A program made the translations under genes and the position numbers. From positions 372,001 to 436,000 of the forward strand of contig JAKVPA010000001.1 of assembly GCA_022482495.1 (NCBI GenBank): a DNA stretch of 64,000 bases, given 5' to 3'. The notes under the pieces were generated by a model. It was not told where the DNA came from. It ran no database searches and saw nothing but the letters and a program-made list of their open reading frames with translations. Shown here piece after piece: positions 6,369 through 51,892 of the stretch (position 1 is the stretch's first letter; each line of letters opens with the position of its first letter). The DNA comes from Sphaerochaeta sp. (GTDB taxonomy: Bacteria; Spirochaetota; Spirochaetia; Sphaerochaetales; Sphaerochaetaceae).

Positions 6369-6569
6369 ATGAAGACTACAATCAAAACGAAAGGGATGAT
6401 GTGCACCGGATGCCAGAAGCGGGTTACGACCGCATTGAACCAGGTGGAAGGCATCCACGATGTGGATGCGTCGTACAAGACCGGTGACGTCAACCTGACG
6501 TATGACTCCGAAGAAGCGCTGAAGAACGCAAAACAAGCCATCGAAGACACCGGTTACGAGGTGGTCTGA
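6369..6569 (+). CDS. copZ: Copper chaperone CopZ (heavy-metal-associated domain)
   Basis: Small cytosolic metallochaperone (66 aa) of the ferredoxin-like HMA fold that hands Cu(I) to CopA. The metal site is MMCTGC near residues 10-15. The start at 6369 follows GGAGG at 6356-6360; an earlier in-frame ATG at 6321 lies inside the promoter and is rejected. It is 2 nt before copA. The pairing with copA identifies the metal as copper by context. Confidence 0.92.
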
Positions 6570-6571
6570 TC

Positions 6572-8713
6572 ATGGAAAAAAAGGACATCTGTGTCGGGGA
6601 CATGGAGTGCGCAGCCTGCAGCGCGTCCGTTGAACGGGTGCTGAAGAAGCTGGACGGCATGCAGAACGTGGCGGTCAATCTCGCCACGGAGAAAGCCCAT
6701 GTGGAGTATGATCCACAAAAGCTCTCGTTGGATAAGATTGAGCAGACGATCAAGAAGGCGGGATTCTCTGTCATTGAGGACGAAGCGGAGCAGAAGGAAG
6801 TACGAGACACAAAAATGCTCTCCCGGAAAATCCGTCTGTGGATCGCCATCGCGATTTCCATTCCGTTGATGCTGTTCTCCATGGGCCACATGTTCGGCCT
6901 TCCCACGTTCCCGCCGGTTGTCCAGTTGATCCTCGCCACGCTGGTGATGGGATGCGGCTACACGTTCTTCACCCAAGGGTTCAAGAACCTGTTCCTGCTC
7001 CATCCCAACATGGACAGCCTGGTGGCCGTCGGCACGACGGCAAGCTATGTGTACTCCATCGCCAACATGATCAACGGGAACCACATGCACCTGTACTTTG
7101 AAGGTGTGGGGACGATCATCACGCTGGTCATGCTGGGCAAGTACATGGAGGCGAAATCCAAGGAAAAGACCGGGGCTGCCATCAAGAAGTTGATGGAACT
7201 GGCCCCGGAGACCGCCACGGTGATCCGTAACGGCCTGGTCAGCGTCATCAACGCCAAACGGGTCGTCGTGGGAGACGTGGTGCTGGTCAAACCGGGAGAG
7301 AAGATTCCGGTGGACGGGGCGATCACCGAAGGGGCCACGGCGGTGGATGAATCGCTGCTGACCGGTGAGAGCATGCCGGTGGAGAAGAAGGTCGGAGACA
7401 CCGTCTACGGCGCGACGATCAACACCACCGGAGCCATCACCTACACGGCGACCAAGGTTGGTGGGGATACGGCCCTGGCCAACATCATCAAGCTGGTCCA
7501 GGACGCCCAGGGCTCCAAAGCCCCGATCGCCCGGATCGCCGACCAGATCTCCGGGTACTTTGTCCCGGTGGTGATGGCCATCGCGCTGGGAGTGTTCCTG
7601 GCATGGAAGCTGACCGGCTCCTCGCTTGACTTCGCATTGGGTACGGCGGTGAGCGTGCTGGTCATCGCGTGTCCGTGCGCCCTTGGCCTTGCCACCCCTA
7701 TCGCCATCATGGTGGCAAGCGGAAAAGGAGCCCAGATGGGCATCCTGTTCCGTAACGCCGGCTCCATTGAGGAACTGCACAAGGTCAAGACCATCGCGTT
7801 CGACAAGACCGGTACGCTGACCCAAGGCAAGCCGGTGGTCACCGATCTGGACGGAGATGCCGATCTCCTTGCCGTCGCGGCGTCGCTGGAGCAGGCAAGC
7901 GAGCATCCGCTTTCCAAAGCGATCGTACAGAAAGCCCAGGAACAGAAGCTCACCCTCTCCAAACCCACTGATTTCCTTGCCATTGTCGGCGAAGGAGTTG
8001 TGGGCAACGTAGATGGCAAACCGGTGAAGATCGGCAACCAGAAGTTGATCGATATCCCGGAAGCGTACCAGAAGAAGATGGAGAATCTTGCCAGCCAAGG
8101 CAAGACGGCCCTGGCCGTCTCGCTGGACAACCGGGTGATCGGCATCATCGCCATCGCCGATACCCTCCGGCCGGAGACCAAACAGACCATCGCCACGTTG
8201 AACCAGATGGGCGTCCATACGGTGATGCTCACCGGAGACAACGAGCGGACTGCCAAGGCCATCGCCGCGCAATGTGGTGTCTCTGACTTCGTCGCAGGCC
8301 AGCTTCCCGGACAGAAGGAAGAGACGATCAAGAGCCTCAGGGCAAAGTATGGTGAGATCGCCATGGTGGGGGATGGCATCAACGATGCCCCTGCCCTCGC
8401 CCAGGCTGATACGGGAATCGCCGTAGGAAGCGCCACAGATGTCGCCAGGGAATCGGCGGACGTAGTCCTGGTACGCAACAACCTGGAAGACGTGGCCAAG
8501 GCCATCAAGCTCTCCCATGCGACGATGCGGAACATCAAGCAGAACCTGTTCTGGGCGTTCTTCTACAACTGTCTGGGCATCCCGGTGGCGGCAGGACTGC
8601 TGACCTTCTTTGGCGGTCCCACCCTCTCCCCGATGATCGCCAGCCTCTGTATGGCCTTCTCCAGCCTCACCGTTGTCACCAACGCCCTCAGGCTGAACCG
8701 CTTCAAGGCATAA
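6572..8713 (+). CDS. copA: Copper-exporting P1B-type ATPase CopA
   Basis: Inner-membrane Cu(I) exporter (713 aa). In order: one N-terminal HMA domain (MECAACS), transmembrane helices, actuator loop with LLTGESMP, the CPC metal site ([12 protein letters not shown]), phosphorylation motif [16 protein letters not shown] nucleotide-binding motif, [12 protein letters not shown] and [10 protein letters not shown]. All catalytic motifs are intact. Length is normal for a CopA with a single HMA domain. It forms an operon with copZ and ends at a strong terminator. Confidence 0.96.
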
Positions 8714-37423: not shown

Positions 37424-38651
37424 ATGCGATTCACCTACGTTTGCAACGAATGCGGCAAGGTCTTTGACACGGACCAGGTCATCTACCAGTGTCCCGACTG
37501 CAGCAAGGACAACGATGATTTCCACTTCCCCAAAGGAAACCTGGTCGTCCGCTACGATCCGGATGAACTGAGGGCGTTGAAACAGAAGGAGCATCTGAGT
37601 TTCTATGACTTCTTCCCCTACCCGGTTCCTGACAAGGAATGCTACCCGGTGGGGAACACCCCGCTGGTCAAGCCTACCCGGTTGATCACAAAGTACGGGG
37701 AGAACGGCGTATTGCTGAAGATGGACAGCGCGCTTCCCTCCGGTTCGTTCAAGGACCGGGCAAGCCAGTTGGTGGCGGCCCAGGCCATCGCCCACCATGA
37801 GAAGAAGGTGACGTTGGCGTCCACCGGAAACGCCGGGGCGGCGATGAGTTGCGCCGGAGCGGCCTATGGCCTGTCCATCGTGCTGTTCGTTCCCGAGACG
37901 GCACCGGTGAACAAGCTGATGCAGTCCGTCCTGTACGGAGCCGAGGTGATCCCGGTGAAAGGGACGTACGATGACGCGTTCAAGCTGTCGCTGGCCTATA
38001 CCAAGCACTTCGGGGGCATCAATCGCAACACGGCGTACAATCCGATGACCATCGAAGGCAAGAAGAGCGTCTCCATCGAGCTGTTCCTCCAGCTGGAACG
38101 GAAGGTTCCCGATCTGGTGTACGTGCCGGTGGGTGACGGATGCATCTACTCCGGCGTGGTCAAGGGGTTCCTGGATCTCCGGGATGCCGGCTTGATCGAC
38201 CGTCTGCCCCATGTGATCTGCGTGCAGTCCCGGCAGTCAAACGCCATCAGCAGGGCGTTTTCCACCGGCAGGTTCGATGCCATCCGACAGGCGACCACCA
38301 AAGCCGATTCGATCAGCGTGGAGAATCCGGCAAGTGGCCGGATGGCGGTGCGGTACCTGAAGGAATCGGAGGGATACTGCGTCGAGGTGGATGACACGGA
38401 GATCTTCGACGCTCAGATGGAGCTCGGTCAGGGAGGCGGGAGCGTTCGTCGAGCCGGCCGCCGCCTGCGCCTGGGCTGGGTTCGTCCACGACAAGGAGAA
38501 CCGGACCAAACGGTTCGGGACGGACGCGTCCGTCTGCGTCCTGTTGACCGGCATCGGTTTCAAGGACATGCAGGCGTTCTCCGGCAAGGTGGCCATTCCC
38601 CCCGCCATCGAGAACAGCGAGGAAGCGATGCTTCAGCGTTGTTCCCGCTGA
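37424..38651 (+). CDS. thrC: Threonine synthase-like PLP enzyme, frameshifted
   Basis: Fold type II PLP enzyme (about 408 aa repaired). The N-terminus is a zinc-ribbon-like segment (CNECGKVF, CPDCSKDN), as in one group of threonine synthases; the PLP lysine lies in SGSFKDRASQ and the glycine loop in STGNAGAAMS. One extra base near 38429 shifts the frame; the expected REAGAFVEPAAACAWAG continues in the next frame to 38651. Threonine synthase is the most likely role, but a diaminopropionate ammonia-lyase-like role in the neighbouring purine pathway cannot be excluded. Confidence 0.82.
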
Positions 38652-38710
38652 CACCTTCCCTTTACTCTCCCCGGTCGATTCGGTATCTTGTGCGAAGAGA
38701 GAGGTGACCT

Positions 38711-44212: not shown

Positions 44213-44725
44213 ATGTCGGTGATGGATACGGTGCAGTTGTTGGAACAGAGGACGCAGAAGGCGGCGACGCTGATCGCCATGCTCCGCAAGGAGAAGGCAG
44301 ATCTTCAGGAAAAACTCAACGAGGCGCAAGGTCGCCCGGTGGCGGATCCTGAGACGGAGCGCAAGCTTCAGGAGGCCCTCGCCAGTGTGGCGACGCTCCA
44401 GGAGCAAGTGACCGCGTCTGACGAACTTGCCAAGAAACTTCAGGCTGAGCTGGATGAGGCGAAGCGGCAGATCGAAGAGCTGCAGCAACGCCTGACGCTG
44501 GCCAACACCCACAACGAAGAACTGCAGTCGTACATCAGCAAGTACGAGGAGAGCAACAAGCTCATCGAGGAAAGCATCTCCAAGTCGCTGGAAACCCTTT
44601 CCGGTGTCCAAGGTCTGGACGACATCCCACTGGATACGATGTCCAACCAGGAACTGGAAGCGGCGGACGACTTCACCCGTGGTGGAGCCCTTGGCGGCGA
44701 CCAGGTGGACGAGTCCAACCTCTGA
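44213..44725 (+). CDS. Coiled-coil protein (ZapB-like)
   Basis: 170 aa, predicted to be almost entirely one long coiled coil (residues 1-135, regular heptads of Leu, Ala, Glu and Lys), with an acidic C-terminus (DFTRGGALGGDQVDESNL). It resembles cell-division protein ZapB only in being a short coiled coil, so the name is tentative. It follows rplT closely and is followed by a strong terminator, thus it belongs to the infC operon. Confidence 0.7.
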   Translation: MSVMDTVQLLEQRTQKAATLIAMLRKEKADLQEKLNEAQGRPVADPETERKLQEALASVATLQEQVTASDELAKKLQAELDEAKRQIEELQQRLTLANTHNEELQSYISKYEESNKLIEESISKSLETLSGVQGLDDIPLDTMSNQELEAADDFTRGGALGGDQVDESNL

Positions 44726-44746
44726 TTCTTTTTCTTTCATCCATGT

Positions 44747-44775
44747 CCTGCCGCAGCAATGTGGCAGGTTTTTTT
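44747..44775 (+). terminator. Terminator of the infC-rpmI-rplT operon
   Basis: Stem CCTGCCGC / GTGGCAGG with a 6-nt loop, followed by seven Ts. Confidence 0.9.
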
Positions 44776-44845
44776 ATCGCGCCGCCGGAAGGGTTTTTCC
44801 TTCACCCCCCTTTATCATTTGGGGTTTCTTGTGTACCATAGGAAT

Positions 44846-45029
44846 AACCTGCGGTAGCCACCGGAGCAAATAGTCTCTTGGCGCAAACATAAGCAGAGGG
44901 TCTCGGAATAGCTGGCCTGCATTGCCTTCGCCTTCGGGTTAAAAGAAGACAGAATCGCCAGCACCAAGTCACCCACTTGAACCTTAGGTTCAAGAGCTTC
45001 TTCGGAAGCGGCGCCGCAGGCCTTTTTTT
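44846..45029 (+). ncRNA. ssrS: 6S RNA (ssrS)
   Basis: About 184 nt. The ends pair (CCTGCGG at 44848-44854 with CCGCAGG at 45014-45020) and seven Ts follow. Near the 3' end is a perfect hairpin CTTGAACC-TTA-GGTTCAAG (44976-44994), nearly the same as the conserved one in E. coli 6S RNA, preceded as there by a GTTAAAA stretch and followed by a GCGGCG-like return strand. A -10 box TACCAT lies at 44834-44839. 6S RNA binds the housekeeping RNA polymerase and damps transcription in slow growth. A covariance-model search would settle the call. Confidence 0.8.
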
Positions 45030-45052
45030 CCTTGGGAGAGGAACCACTACGC

Positions 45053-46342
45053 ATGACAGACGCAACGCTGAAGGACATCGTTTTCATCACGCTCCCTGAG
45101 AGCATGGGAAGAGAGATCAACGGCTTTCGGGTCGACCCGGCACGCCGGATTCCTGTTCAATTGCCCGATGGGAAGACCGCCATCGACGAATCGGACGAGA
45201 TCACCGTCGAGATGATCATCAGCGGCATGCTGAAACTCATCGCATGGCGTCCGGAAGACCCAAACCACGATTATTACCGGGCATTCGTTCTGGCAGCAGA
45301 ACCGGACGCGGTGGAACAGCTCAACCTGGCTGCAATCGCCCAAGAGAAGCAGGGGCACCTGGAATTCGCAGAGGAACTGTTCCTCACAGTCTGCCACCTC
45401 TCTCCGCAGAGCGCCACGTTCATCAACCTGGCGACGCTGTACAGCGAACGGGCAGCCAAGGACACCAGCAAGGGAACGGTGTACGACCTGTATGCCCAGA
45501 AGGCGCTGGATACTCTTCTGGAAGGCTTGAAGCAGTTCCCCAAGGATGCCGACCTGCTCTGTGAGGTGGGATATTTCCATCTCTACCAAGGGAATACCGA
45601 AGCGGCGCGGAACTTCTTCGAGCAATACCTTGCCGTGGCGCCCCAGGGGGACAAACGGACCAAGGTTGAGAAGGTCTTCTCCGACATCACCAACAAGATC
45701 ACCAACGACACGGAGCTCCTGGGCGCCTACGACAAGATCCAGATGGGCGAAGAGGACAAGGCGGTACAAGCGCTGGATGCCTACATCGCCAAGAACCCCA
45801 CCGTCTGGAACGCCTACTTTCTCAAAGGATGGGCGCTTCGACGTCTGGAGGAGTTCGAACCGGCCAAGGACGCGTTCCTCAAATGCCTCTCGCTGGGAGA
45901 GCGTGACGGGGACATCTACAACGAACTGTCGCTGTGCGAGTTCTCGTTGGGAAACAAGGAACTGGCCAAGACCTATCTGGACACGGCGGTGGATCTGGAT
46001 GAAACCAACCTCACCTACCTGTCCAATCTGGCATACCTCCATCTGAAGGACGAGGAATACACCGAGGCGCGGAGGCTGCTGGAAAAGGCCCGTGTCATCG
46101 ACGGAAACGATCCGTTGATCCAGCAATTGATGAAGGATTACGCCACCCAGACGGGCGACAGCCTGTCCGAACAGCCGGTGGAGGAGCGCGTTGTCGATGA
46201 CGAGACGCTCCAGGAAGAGGTGAAGAAGCAGGACGCCAAAGAGGCGATGCATGACTTCTCCGCCCACCGGGAAGATATGGAAGAAACTGATGATGAGGGT
46301 GAACATCATCATCACCATCATCATGGCGAGGAAGCAGAATGA
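45053..46342 (+). CDS. TPR-repeat protein with histidine-rich tail
   Basis: Cytosolic protein of 429 aa. A first domain of about 90 residues (PESMGREINGFRVDPARRIPVQL) is followed by tetratricopeptide repeats at about residues 90-360 and an acidic C-terminus with seven consecutive His (GEHHHHHHHGEE), a natural metal-binding tail. The start at 45053 follows GGGAGAGG. It overlaps tsaE by ATGA. The function is unknown; TPR proteins are scaffolds for other proteins. Confidence 0.85.
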   Translation: MTDATLKDIVFITLPESMGREINGFRVDPARRIPVQLPDGKTAIDESDEITVEMIISGMLKLIAWRPEDPNHDYYRAFVLAAEPDAVEQLNLAAIAQEKQGHLEFAEELFLTVCHLSPQSATFINLATLYSERAAKDTSKGTVYDLYAQKALDTLLEGLKQFPKDADLLCEVGYFHLYQGNTEAARNFFEQYLAVAPQGDKRTKVEKVFSDITNKITNDTELLGAYDKIQMGEEDKAVQALDAYIAKNPTVWNAYFLKGWALRRLEEFEPAKDAFLKCLSLGERDGDIYNELSLCEFSLGNKELAKTYLDTAVDLDETNLTYLSNLAYLHLKDEEYTEARRLLEKARVIDGNDPLIQQLMKDYATQTGDSLSEQPVEERVVDDETLQEEVKKQDAKEAMHDFSAHREDMEETDDEGEHHHHHHHGEEAE

Positions 46343-46761
46343 CGATTGTTTCGAAAAGCCCGGCGGAAACGCTGGAAGTGGGAAGAAGGATCGGCGCGCA
46401 CTGCAAGCCGGGAACGGTGATCAGCCTGAGGGGAAGCCTCGGGGCGGGAAAGACGGTGATCGCCAAGGGAGTTGCCGAGGCGCTCGGCATCACCGAGGCG
46501 ATCGTCAGCCCGACCTTCACGTTGATCCAGGAATACCAGGGCAAAACCCTCAGGATGTATCACATGGACCTGTACCGGCTCTCCGGCACGGATGAGTTTG
46601 AGATGATCGGCGGAGAGGAGATGCTGTACGGCAAAGCCGTCACGTTGATCGAGTGGAGCGAGAAGATCCAGGAGATGTTGCCGAAGAACACGGTGTACGT
46701 CAATCTGGAGATTCAGCCCAACCAGGAGCGGGTCATCACGATCCAGGGGATGGAACTATGA
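46339..46761 (+). CDS. tsaE: tRNA threonylcarbamoyladenosine synthesis ATPase TsaE
   Basis: Small P-loop ATPase of 140 aa. Walker A is LRGSLGAGKTVIAKG; SPTFTLIQEY and HMDLYRL are family hallmarks. It works with TsaB and TsaD to place the t6A modification at position 37 of tRNAs reading ANN codons. It overlaps both neighbours by ATGA, so tsaE and tsaB are coupled. Confidence 0.95.
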   Translation: MTIVSKSPAETLEVGRRIGAHCKPGTVISLRGSLGAGKTVIAKGVAEALGITEAIVSPTFTLIQEYQGKTLRMYHMDLYRLSGTDEFEMIGGEEMLYGKAVTLIEWSEKIQEMLPKNTVYVNLEIQPNQERVITIQGMEL

Positions 46762-47477
46762 ACATACTGACGGTGGATACGGCGACGGAGACGATGCGTC
46801 TGGGGCTTGCCATCGGGGACGAAGAGAATCCGATGGATCTGTTCTGTGAGCGGATGCTTCTTTCCAGCGGCATGCACTCCGAACACCTGGTGCCCGAGAT
46901 GATCGCCATGTGTTCCGAGATGGGCATCACGCTGAAGGATCTTTCCCTTTTGGTCTGCACCAGCGGACCGGGATCCTTCACCGGACTACGGGTTGGCATG
47001 AGCGCGCTGAAAGGCATCGCCCTTGGGGGAAACATCCCGTTGGTCTCCATCCCGACGATGGACGCCATCCAGAAAGCGGTGGGCTTCTTCCCCGGGGCCG
47101 TCGTCCCGGTGATCGACGCCCGCAAGGCACGGTACTACAGCACCATCTTCGTCGATGGCAAGCGGATGTGCCCTGATCTGGACTGCCAGGGTTCCGAAGT
47201 GGCGGAGCTTCTGGAAGGATATGAGATGGCGCTGGTCACCGGTCCTGATGCCGTGGTGTTCGCCCCGAGCATCACCCCCTACTCCGGCAAACTGGTCGTC
47301 GACACGATCCGCTACCGTTCGCTCACCCAGGCACTGGTCGAATTGGGTTTGAAGCGTTACCATGAAATAGGCGCGGATGATATCGGAACCGGGCCGGAAT
47401 ACGTACGACGCAGTGACGCGGAGATCGCGTTGGAAGAAAAAATCAAGCGTCAGGAAGAGGAACGCAATGCAAAGTAG
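46758..47477 (+). CDS. tsaB: tRNA threonylcarbamoyladenosine synthesis protein TsaB
   Basis: ASKHA-fold protein of 239 aa. NILTVDTATETMRLGL at the N-terminus and SGPGSFTGLRVGMSALKGIA are diagnostic. It acts as scaffold between TsaD and TsaE in t6A synthesis. The ATG at 46758 overlaps the tsaE stop. Confidence 0.95.
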   Translation: MNILTVDTATETMRLGLAIGDEENPMDLFCERMLLSSGMHSEHLVPEMIAMCSEMGITLKDLSLLVCTSGPGSFTGLRVGMSALKGIALGGNIPLVSIPTMDAIQKAVGFFPGAVVPVIDARKARYYSTIFVDGKRMCPDLDCQGSEVAELLEGYEMALVTGPDAVVFAPSITPYSGKLVVDTIRYRSLTQALVELGLKRYHEIGADDIGTGPEYVRRSDAEIALEEKIKRQEEERNAK

Positions 47478-48400
47478 AGACATCATCGTCATCGGAAGCG
47501 GCGTGGCTGGCATGAGCGCGGCGGGATACGCTGCGCGCGCCGGCCGCAGTGTCATGATTTTGGAAAGTTTCGCCGCTGGCGGACAGTGCATGTACATCGC
47601 TGATGTGGAGAACTACCCGGGACTGACCGAGCCGATCTCCGGATTCGAGTTCGGTGAGCGCTTCGAGACCCAGGCGAAGAAGTTCGGCGCAGAGAACGAC
47701 GTCGGCCGAAGTGAAAGCGATCCGCAAGGAAAACGACCGGTTCATCGTCCAGACCAACGACGGGGACTGGGAAGCGAAAGCGGTGATCATCGCCACCGGG
47801 GCGAAACATCGCAAGATGGACGTCCCCGGGGAAGAGGACTACCAGGGCAAAGGGGTGTCATACTGCGGCACCTGCGATGGTCCGTTGTTCCGTGGCAAAC
47901 GGATTCTTGTCGTCGGAGGCGGGGACACGGCGCTGACCGATGCGCTGTACCTGTCCCAGATGACCAAGGATCTGACCATCTGCCATCGCAAGGACCGGTT
48001 CCGTGCCCAGGAAAACCTGGTCTCCCAGATCAGTTGCAAACAGATCGCCACGGTGATGGATACGACCGTCTCCAAGATTCTCGGAGATGGGAAACATGTC
48101 ACCGGCGTGGAACTGACCTCCACCAAAGACGGTTCGTCCCACACGATGGATGTGGATGGAGTGTTCATTTTCGTCGGCATGATCCCCCAGACGGCATTCC
48201 TGGACAAAGCGATCCTGGATAGCCATGGATACGTGGTCACCGACCGGAACATGCAGACGTCCGTACCCGGCCTGTTCGCCGCGGGTGATGTGCGTGACAC
48301 GCCATTCCGCCAGCTGGTGACCGCCGCCTCGGACGGGGCCATCGCGGCCCACGCGGCAAGCGAGTACATCGACTTCATTGACGGCCATCCCTACCGCTGA
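47467..48400 (+). CDS. trxB: Thioredoxin reductase, frameshifted
   Basis: NADPH-dependent FAD flavoenzyme (about 310 aa repaired). FAD motif IIVIGSGVAGMSAAGYAAR, redox-active dithiol YCGTCDGPL, NADPH motif ILVVGGGDTALTDALYL and the C-terminal FAD motif LFAAGDVRD are all present. One extra base near 47698 splits the gene; the frame resumes at AEVKAIRKEN. The start at 47467 overlaps tsaB by 11 nt. Confidence 0.92.
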
Positions 48401-48408
48401 GGCGTACC

Positions 48409-50746
48409 GTGGACCGGTTCTTCGGATGGATTTCCCGACATAGAGTCCTGATTCTTCTGTTGGTTTTCGCCATTACAGGGGTACTGTTGTTTTTTGCATT
48501 GTCCCTTTCCCTGGACAGCAGTGTGGAGGGAATGATTCCTTCCGACCCGCAGGTGGAAGCCATCAAACGGGAAGTCTGGGGAGAAGACGACGGGCAATGG
48601 CCGGAGAACATCTACTTCCTGGCCGAGGGTCCCGGACTGTTCCGTCCCGAGACACTCACCGCAATCGATGCGGTGCGGGCCCAATTGCAGGAACTGCCCC
48701 AGATCGGTCCGGAAGTCTCCCCGTTCACCTTCGTTACCGTAACCAGAAAAGGAACACGACTTGCCACCGTCCCGCTTTCGCCCCATCAGGGGAATGAGCC
48801 GTGGACGGAAGCGGAAGCTGAGGAGTTCCGTACCCGGATCCAGGAAGACGACATGGTCCGTGGTCTGGTCACTACCCCGGATGGCAATGGACTTCTGATC
48901 TATTTCAGCGCCGCTTCATTCGGAAAAGACCGGACGGAGATTGACCAGACGATCAGCAGCATCGTCCACAGCCTGGATCCGTACTGCACGGTAAAGGTGC
49001 TGGGTTCCACGTTCTTCAGCGACCGGCTGGACCATTACCTGACCAACAACCTGTTTCTGCTTCTTGGATTGTGCCTGTTGGTGATTCTTCTGATCTACTA
49101 CCTCTCCTTCCGGGCAAAGCGTGCCGTGTTGATCCCGTTCAGTGTTTCGGTGATCGGCATCATCTGGACGCTTGGCGTAATGCGCCTTTTGGGATACGAA
49201 GTGACGATCGTTTCCGTCATCACCCCCTGCATGGTGTTGATCTTGGGCTCTTCCTACTCGATCCATGTGATCAGCGCGTACTATGCCCAGTTCCGCAAGA
49301 ATCCGGACATGAAGGATCCTGTCGCATTGGTCACCACGTCGATGCGCGGCATCACCCAGACGATCGTCGCGGCATGCCTGACGACGGTGGTGGGGTTCCT
49401 CAGCCTGCTGGTCACCCATATCCAGGCGTTCCGAGAGATGGGGCTCTCCGTGGCGCTGGGCATCATCTCCTGCGCCATCCTCTCCTTGACCTATATTCCC
49501 GCCTGGCTTTCCACTATTTCCCCACCCCGCCCCCACCAGCTGAAGGTGATCAAAGAAGGGACGCTCTCCAAAGTGGTTGACGGCGTCTCCGGCTTCGTCG
49601 TGCGGCGCTGGTACGTCGGTCTGCTCGTCCTGCTCGCCATCTGTCTCTCCTTTGTGGTGGTCCATGACAAGATTCCCGTGGAGACGGACTTCATTTCCTA
49701 TTTTCCCAAGGATGACCAGTACGTGCAGGACGCCCTGTATTTCTCCACCCAGATGGGGAGCACCGATCCCCATTACATCTCATTGGAAGCGCCAGAAGGG
49801 GAAGAACGATACTTCACCCGACCGGAGGTGCTTTCCCAGATCTTCGTCTTCGAGGAGGCGCTCCGCGCATCCGATCCTGATATCGTGCACATCCTCTCCT
49901 TCAGCCAGTACGCCGCGTTCTTCAACAAGGCGTATACCGGCAAACGGGAGACACCAACCACTCCCGGCATGATCCTTGCCCTCTCCAAATATCTGGACGT
50001 ATTGCAGAACCGGTTGGGGGACAATACGGTCAGCATGCTGATGAGCCAGGATGGATCCCGGATGACCATCGCCGTCCGGTACTGGGACAGCAAAAAGCAA
50101 ACCATGCAGAACTTGGATGCGGCAAAGCGGCTGAAACAGGCCATCGCCAGCCATCAGGTGCTGCTTCCTCCGGAAGTGACCGTCACCGATTGGGGAACAA
50201 CGGCAAGCAGCCTGAAGCTGGTTTCCCAGATCCTGTATGACCAAAGGCTTTCCACCTTGCTGTCGTTCATGTTGGTGTTCCTGATCGTCTGTTTCCAGTT
50301 CCGTTCCCTCACCTACGGTCTGGCCTCGATGATCCCCATCATGGTCGGCGTGATGTGCAGCTACGGCATGATGTACCTGTTCGGCATTCCGTTTGATGTG
50401 GTGACGACGATCTTCGGATCGGTGACCGTCGGAACCGGCATTGATGACGCCATCCACTTTCTGGTGCGGCTCAGGGAACATCGCAAGGCCCATTCCGACC
50501 AGCCGTTCCCCGTCCAGGTGCAGCACACCATTCTGATCTCCGGCCGACCGATCATCCTGACATCCGTCAGCATCATTCTGGGCATGCTGATGTTCGGATT
50601 CGCAAGTTACACACCGATCCGCTATTTTCGGGTTTCTGATGGCGATCGCATTGCTTTCCACGACACTCTCCACCATCTGTATCCTTCCCGGGGTGATGGT
50701 GGCGTTCCATCTGTTGGGACGACGATGGAAAAAGGAGACGAAATGA
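48409..50746 (+). CDS. RND/MMPL-family exporter, frameshifted
   Basis: Integral membrane protein of about 778 aa repaired, built of two similar halves: a helix, a periplasmic domain and a cluster of five to six helices each time (LLLGLCLLVILLIYYLSF and LSTLLSFMLVFLIVCFQF start the clusters; GTGIDDAIHFLVRLREH is a typical RND helix-4 segment). It probably exports a lipid or amphiphile using the proton gradient. A run of four Ts at 50624-50627 has one T too many; after removal FGFLMAIALLSTTLS runs to a stop at 50746. The start is GTG at 48409. It overlaps the next gene by ATGA. Confidence 0.88.
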
Positions 50747-51892
50747 AAGGCTTGTTCTTGTACATCACCGCGGGCAAAGGACACCAGACGCCGGCGGAAG
50801 CGCTTCGGGACGCAATGATTTCCCTGGGACACCAGGCCGTCTCGATGGACATGTTCGACCTGATGCAGGCGCCGCGCATCAAGCAGCAGATTGAGCGCAA
50901 CTGGCGGATGATGCTCCGCCACCCGACCCAGGAACGGCTGGGGGATTCCCTTGCCGACACCAAGTTCAGCGGCAAGTTGATTACCACGACGCTTGGTCTG
51001 GTTCCCAAGATGCGGGATCGGGTCATCGCCTACGTCAGGGAGTACCAGCCGGATTTCATTCTGGGCACTCACTTTCTCATCGGTCCGATGATCGCCCCGA
51101 TCATCCGCAAGTTCTTCCCGGCGATTCCGGTGTACGCCTATGCCCCGGACATCTTCTACTACCCCATCGCCGGCTCAGCCAGCAAGTATCTGGACCGGGT
51201 GTTCGTCACCTCCACCATCGGACGGGACTGGTGCTACCATCTGGGCTTTTCCGGCGCCCAGGTCTCCCTTTGTCCGTTTCCGTTGAAAAAGGTCATCGAG
51301 GAGACCAAACCGCTCCCCACCAAGGTCGCCCGGGGAAAACTGGGATTGAAGGAGCGGTTCACCATTCTGTTCAACCTTGGGGGGGAAGGCATCGGCAACA
51401 CCCGCCTGGTACGGGTGCTGGCCAAACGGAACTTCTCCTTCCAGGTGGTCATTTTGGGCACGATGAGCAAGGATACCGGCCAAGCGGTACGCAAAGTTCC
51501 GCCAAGTCTATCCTTCATTCCCGTTGTACACCCCGGGCTTCGTCACCAACATGCAGGATTGGCTGTGCGCCTGTGACATCCAGATCGGCAAAGCGGGAGC
51601 CAACGCCCAGATGGAGGCGATGTACTACCACAAACCGTTCATCATTACCGAAATGCTGTATCCTGCGGAAAAGACGGCGGATTTCTTCGCCCAACACGAG
51701 GTGGGATGGATCGAGAACAACGTGCGCAAGCAGGCCGACCTGTTGGAGCGGTATGCTACGGACACGGCGTTCCGGCGTCATGTGGCCAAGGAAATGCGGA
51801 ACGTGCCGATCGCCTTTGGAAGCAAGCAGTTCGCCCGTCAGATCATCGGCGACGCCATCAAAGATGCAGGTGATCGTCAAACCGGTCACTGA
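50743..51892 (+). CDS. Diacylglycerol glycosyltransferase (MGDG synthase-like, GT28), frameshifted
   Basis: Glycosyltransferase of about 382 aa repaired. The N-terminal MGDG-synthase domain shows TAGKGHQTPAEALRDA and YAPDIFYYP; the C-terminal GT28 domain has FNLGGEGIGNTRLV and the nucleotide-sugar site IGKAGANAQMEAMYY. It likely adds sugars to diacylglycerol in the membrane. One extra G near 51478 breaks the frame; DTAKRYAKFRQVYP is restored when it is removed. The coupling with the RND exporter suggests a shared lipid pathway. Confidence 0.88.

Follow-up and report, generated by a model that had tools for sequence, protein, structure and literature searches.

Positions 44842 to 45029 of the window (the whole stretch of 64,000 nucleotides that was analyzed), read on the forward strand, almost certainly hold the 6S RNA (ssrS) gene of this Sphaerochaetaceae bacterium, as judged from sequence comparison. 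6S RNA, widely known from bacteria, acts as a mimic of an open promoter and holds RNA polymerase in check. The locus represents a known RNA family, of which it is a new, divergent and hard-to-annotate member, and we grade this identity as firm. Polymerase binding, the product RNA and release are carried over from the 6S family by analogy, and would apply to the RNA of this locus as they do to its better-known relatives.

The sequence-only reading, which had called a 6S RNA here, named a search with the Rfam 6S model (RF00013) as the check. On its own the window falls short of that model, with 13.7 bits against a gathering cut-off of 46.4 bits, a curation threshold that marks no biological feature; in this it is unlike the accepted RF00013 members. 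The alignment obtained on a 401-base stretch is full length (1–187, E 1.5), and over the whole 2.25-Mb genome the 6S locus is the only match at E up to 10 (E 1.98). With Rfam gathering cut-offs applied, the window yielded only a tRNA and no 6S match. The call was upheld by way of relatives. By BLASTN, 16 of 61 genomes carry the element, one of them its own, which leaves 15 of 60 others. With 48.7 to 68 bits, seven of these 15 loci exceed the threshold of RF00013; four fall below it (27.8–44.8 bits), while for L005, L007, L013 and L016 RF00013 returned nothing at E up to 1; the BLASTN match of L016 spans 23 bases only and was omitted from the alignment. Matches to sbrA and ctRNA in L003 and L005 were rejected, being under their own cut-offs. 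As 7 of the 15 relatives, and not the window, pass RF00013, the membership of the window rests on homology through these relatives.

To avoid circularity, the window was excluded from the covariance model R3, which draws on 14 relatives. Searching its own genome with R3 yielded the 6S locus as the sole match (137 bits, E 5.8e-27), and searching 67 kb of E. coli recovered the annotated ssrS gene (34.3 bits, E 5e-6); these E-values are rough because calibration was short. The element is thereby linked to accepted 6S RNAs both by BLASTN to RF00013-positive relatives and by a model that also finds the E. coli gene. In addition, a pattern search for the bubble hairpin matched 32 named records, in each case (32/32) at a 6S RNA, 28 of them confirmed by R1 and four proteobacterial ones by RF00013. 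The features of the locus are listed in Table 1.

Table 1. Features of the 6S RNA locus and its neighbors in the window.
Feature	Position	Strand	Basis or remark
170-aa coiled-coil gene occupying the zapB position of relatives	44213-44725	+	weak N-terminal resemblance to ZapB
Terminator-like site, gap between coiled-coil gene and 6S	44747-44776	+	the only one within 44600-45200, chance expectation 0.9; also placed at 44747-44768
Candidate sigma-70-type promoter of the 6S gene	44812-44839	+	TTATCA 44812-44817, 16 nt, TACCAT 44834-44839; 8/12 consensus
6S RNA gene	44842-45029	+	model span 44842-45027, T-run to 45029; R3 model; BLASTN relatives pass RF00013
P1 closing stem, 5' strand	44848-44855	+	pairs with 45013-45020
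P2 downstream helix, 5' strand CUCUUG	44875-44880	+	pairs with 44991-44996 (CAAGAG)
Apical arm	44898-44974	+	GGGT 44898-44901/ACCC 44971-44974; GCTGGC 44911-44916/GCCAGC 44957-44962
3' central-bubble hairpin CUUGAACC-UUA-GGUUCAAG	44976-44994	+	8 bp; shares 44991-44994 with P2
P1 closing stem, 3' strand	45013-45020	+	pairs with 44848-44855
T-run after P1, possible terminator	45023-45029	+	sequence
TPR protein gene, opening the TPR-tsaE-tsaB run	45053-46342	+	Pfam
tsaE	46339-46761	+	PF02367, E 4.3e-39
tsaB	46755-47477	+	TIGR03725, 119 bits, cut-off 69.3

The paired ends, the T-run and the hairpin CTTGAACC-TTA-GGTTCAAG on which the earlier call had been based are readily seen in the sequence, with CCTGCGGT pairing with GCCGCAGG in the closing stem. 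The GTTAAAA stretch that it had also invoked is real (GGTTAAAAG, 44937–44945) but belongs to the variable apical loop, is unconserved in the relatives and is no 6S signature. By sequence the element measures 184–188 nt, and its promoter candidate is weak. The 184-nt strand folds at -66.3 kcal/mol, compared to a mean of -53.9 kcal/mol for dinucleotide shuffles, and is more stable than 200 of 200 of these (z -2.93). By eye, the T-run is weak or missing at this place in several relatives.

Conservation of the fold was assessed in a family alignment of 15 sequences, including the window, using a 33-pair structure drawn up manually by adding helix P2 to the RNAalifold result, with the bubble hairpin left out. 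In this structure 93.3% of the cells are paired and 15 pairs are changed on both sides, 12 of which lie in the helices of the apical arm; in the closing stem P1, 91.9% of the cells are paired and both-sided changes occur in three of nine pairs (alignment A2). Covariation reaches 0.276 against 0.145 in shuffles, none of 500 attaining the observed value, and 0.033–0.104 in slid versions, a control biased towards the 33-pair structure because this was derived from the same sequences. As P2 hardly varies (CUCUUG was found in 49 of 49 spirochaete sequences read), covariation supports P1 and the apical arm, and not P2. The 6S rod of closing stem, central bubble and apical arm is thus kept by compensatory changes.

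In its length, closing stem, bubble, apical arm and bubble hairpin (CUUGAACC...GGUUCAAG) the window RNA resembles E. coli ssrS (RF00013), and its general anatomy is that of B. subtilis 6S-1 as described in PMC8876501. It shares the bubble element with the 6S RNAs of other Sphaerochaetaceae and Spirochaetia (L089–L120, L052–L060), which are found by the same model. Within the phylum, Bb6S of Borrelia burgdorferi is a 6S RNA known from bioinformatics and RNA-seq, according to PMC6041397.

The gene order in the window is infC, rpmI, rplT, a 170-aa coiled-coil gene, a terminator-like site, 6S, TPR, tsaE, tsaB. Placing the RNA between a ribosomal operon and a TPR gene, as the sequence-only reading did, is correct for infC-rpmI-rplT upstream and TPR downstream (Pfam, NCBIfam), but the immediate upstream gene is the coiled-coil gene, which is non-ribosomal. 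Its protein matches PF06005 at E 0.0015 over the first 76 aa, under the cut-off, and ZapB of L053 by BLASTP at only E 0.02; its assignment as zapB is not established. Unlike at E. coli ssrS, zapA is gone upstream of 6S in the window, and TPR-tsaE-tsaB lies downstream where E. coli has fau.

In Spirochaetia outside the Sphaerochaetaceae, the end of zapA and the 6S gene are mostly only a few bases apart, and a PilZN3-type gene often comes next. A short gene ends -9 to +4 bases from the start of the 6S match in seven of nine loci from other families of the class (L052–L060), no such gene being called at the 6S start in L057 and L058. All five of these short genes that were tested encode ZapA (PF05164) above cut-off, and both of the two preceding genes tested encode ZapB (PF06005) above cut-off. 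Six of the nine loci have a gene of approximately 270–300 aa between 6S and the TPR gene, of which the one tested (L056) is of the PilZN3 type. The order zapB-zapA-ssrS is reported in beta- and gamma-proteobacteria (PMC7641849). It was rightly pointed out before that 6S precedes ygfA in proteobacteria (zapA-ssrS-fau in E. coli); the zapB-zapA side is the more telling shared neighbor. That spirochaetes and proteobacteria have the same order suggests that the zapB-zapA-6S linkage is old, though independent assembly or transfer may also account for it. A literature search by title and abstract opening, mostly among non-subscription papers, found no report of this order in spirochaetes; such a report may be in print.

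A sigma-70 scan at 9/12 matches found no promoter upstream of 6S, and the 8/12 candidate in Table 1 would place the expected transcription start near A44846. Averaged over 50 upstream regions (49 spirochaete and one E. coli, one of them shortened by a contig end), the best promoter score is 7.74, compared to 6.64 (sd 0.18) in base-shuffled regions, of which 0 of 200 reach the observed value.

The TPR-tsaE-tsaB run noticed directly downstream was confirmed by Pfam and NCBIfam. The TPR start codon lies 23 bases past the T-run, and this start is supported by most relatives aligning from residue 3–7 on; a scan for the TPR protein in named genomes confirmed no relative. The distance was compared in 31 Sphaerochaetaceae genomes, being the 33 6S-bearing ones among 37, minus G011 (no TPR match) and G028 (TPR on another contig). 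In 28 of these, 6S directly precedes the TPR gene in the same orientation at a distance of 12–111 nt, and in three (G008, G020, G035) it lies on the opposite strand. The 6S gene is therefore usually, but not always, coupled to the TPR run, and can stand alone. Read-through from 6S is plausible on sequence grounds, and the transcript may continue into the TPR-tsaE-tsaB genes. In G020 and G035 (L050, L051), 6S is situated between the TPR gene and a gene of 159–163 aa, a local rearrangement.

Several other features were observed in the stretch and in the compared records. A threonine-synthase-like ORF (37424–38707) has an apparent frame change near 38400, its C-terminal part seemingly continuing in another frame (38391–38651; by eye), which looks like a small insertion/deletion or an assembly error. 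A thioredoxin-reductase-like gene (47377–48400) appears by eye to be split across the overlapping frames 47377–48222 and 47654–48400. The single 1055-aa ORF at 48409–51576 combines an exporter-like protein with the apparent start of a separate protein, and G001 and G002 have a free-standing 379-aa gene whose beginning (MKGLF) is similar. In L093, a record titled as a proteobacterial MAG, a cobalamin riboswitch (6478–6734) is found approximately 2.8 kb from the 6S RNA.

To chart the distribution of the gene we used R1, a Sphaerochaetaceae family covariance model to which 14 of the scanned family genomes contributed, and R2, a wider model from 50 loci. R1 matches 127 of 139 Sphaerochaetaceae genomes and 71 of the 75 of good quality; G135 gives fragments only (43.6 and 23.9 bits). 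Among 37 genomes of the family searched with both models, RF00013 scores over its cut-off in seven and R1 matches in 33, with four in which neither detects 6S. No 6S was found in G007, G014, G030 and G162 even with R2. Two of these, G014 and G030 (loci L125 and L126), are small genomes of 1.2 Mb in which the TPR gene starts at the end of another gene, by eye resembling the end of a valine-tRNA ligase gene; because this end adjoins the TPR start, 6S has likely been lost upstream of the TPR gene, although a copy too divergent to detect may lie elsewhere. Among 148 genomes sampled from the class, R2 matches 70; the other 78 gave no match in a search whose strict filters lose weak matches, and may still carry 6S.

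Two other explanations bear on what the element is. It might be a cis-acting leader, a regulatory 5' UTR of the TPR-tsaE-tsaB transcript that merely resembles 6S, and the short gap in 28 of the 31 genomes fits this, as it leaves little room for a separate promoter in most of them. The three genomes in which the element and the TPR gene have opposite orientations speak against a leader, as do the different gene that separates 6S and TPR in six of nine other Spirochaetia loci, the relatives that pass the 6S model and the recovery of E. coli ssrS by the family model; we consider a mere leader highly improbable. The low Rfam score might also reflect a 6S pseudogene decaying in this lineage, for relatives reach up to 68 bits with RF00013 and the two other genomes of the genus are without an RF00013 match. 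Both of these have 6S by R1, however (96.4 and 88.9 bits), and in the window the 137 bits with the window-free model, the intact P1 and apical helices and the retained bubble motif and hairpin argue for a maintained gene, in a genome where searches with RF00013 and R3 revealed no second 6S copy. Decay is thus hardly credible, and a 6S RNA gene remains our reading.

How this 6S RNA is released from polymerase is less clear-cut. From what is known of the family, it would be transcribed from its own sigma-70-type promoter, would resemble an open promoter to polymerase and would occupy the housekeeping holoenzyme on nutrient exhaustion, until a short product RNA copied from the 5' bubble strand ejects it. 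Judging from the alignment with E. coli ssrS, product RNA synthesis would begin at approximately 44884–44890, in the bubble immediately 3' of CUCUUG. P2 (CUCUUG/CAAGAG) and the bubble hairpin are mutually exclusive because both use CAAG, and a motif search showed that 48 of 49 spirochaete 6S sequences can form either of them (50 rows minus L015, from the same genome as L056), the exception, L066, having a 5-pair hairpin; in nearly all, the hairpin has 7–9 pairs. Since copying would open P2 and free its 3' strand for the hairpin, the anatomy points to E. coli-manner release; according to PMC8876501, disrupting this helix in E. coli and other gamma-proteobacteria allows a 9-bp hairpin to form, and this hairpin drives release. 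Energy prediction argues against a plain repeat of the E. coli cycle. For the window RNA in its free state, the bubble hairpin is predicted to be favored over P2 by 7.3 kcal/mol, so that the ground state assumed for binding differs from the predicted free fold, whereas in E. coli 6S the hairpin is favored by 0.3 kcal/mol (with only three P2 pairs forced). The same preference is predicted for 39 of the 49 sequences, by at least 3 kcal/mol in 15, and is what release in the Bacillus manner, with a pre-formed hairpin and a collapse helix, would lead one to expect; a pre-formed 3' bubble hairpin is described for B. subtilis 6S-1 in PMC8876501. This alternative concerns the release step and not the identity of the RNA. 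With a 3' arm in common with P2 and, in nearly all sequences, 7–9 pairs, the spirochaete hairpin has the E. coli arrangement (9 bp), and B. subtilis 6S-1 is reported to be without such an extended hairpin sharing a P2 strand (PMC8876501). We regard Bacillus-manner release as possible but somewhat doubtful; under E. coli-manner release, polymerase may impose the open form.

Taken to its full extent, the comparison would imply that the zapB-zapA-6S order predates the split of Spirochaetota and Proteobacteria, that spirochaete 6S uses the gamma-proteobacterial (E. coli) release switch, and that the Sphaerochaetaceae lost zapA, with 6S becoming the leader of TPR-tsaE-tsaB, a scenario that we put forward tentatively and think rather unlikely. 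For annotation, a standard RF00013 search misses most Sphaerochaetaceae 6S genes (7 found versus 33 of 37). The locus is a test case for the age of the zapB-zapA-6S linkage and for the question of how general the E. coli release hairpin is beyond Proteobacteria. If 6S is indeed the leader of TPR-tsaE-tsaB, one promoter would set both the polymerase throttle and the genes for the tRNA modification t6A.
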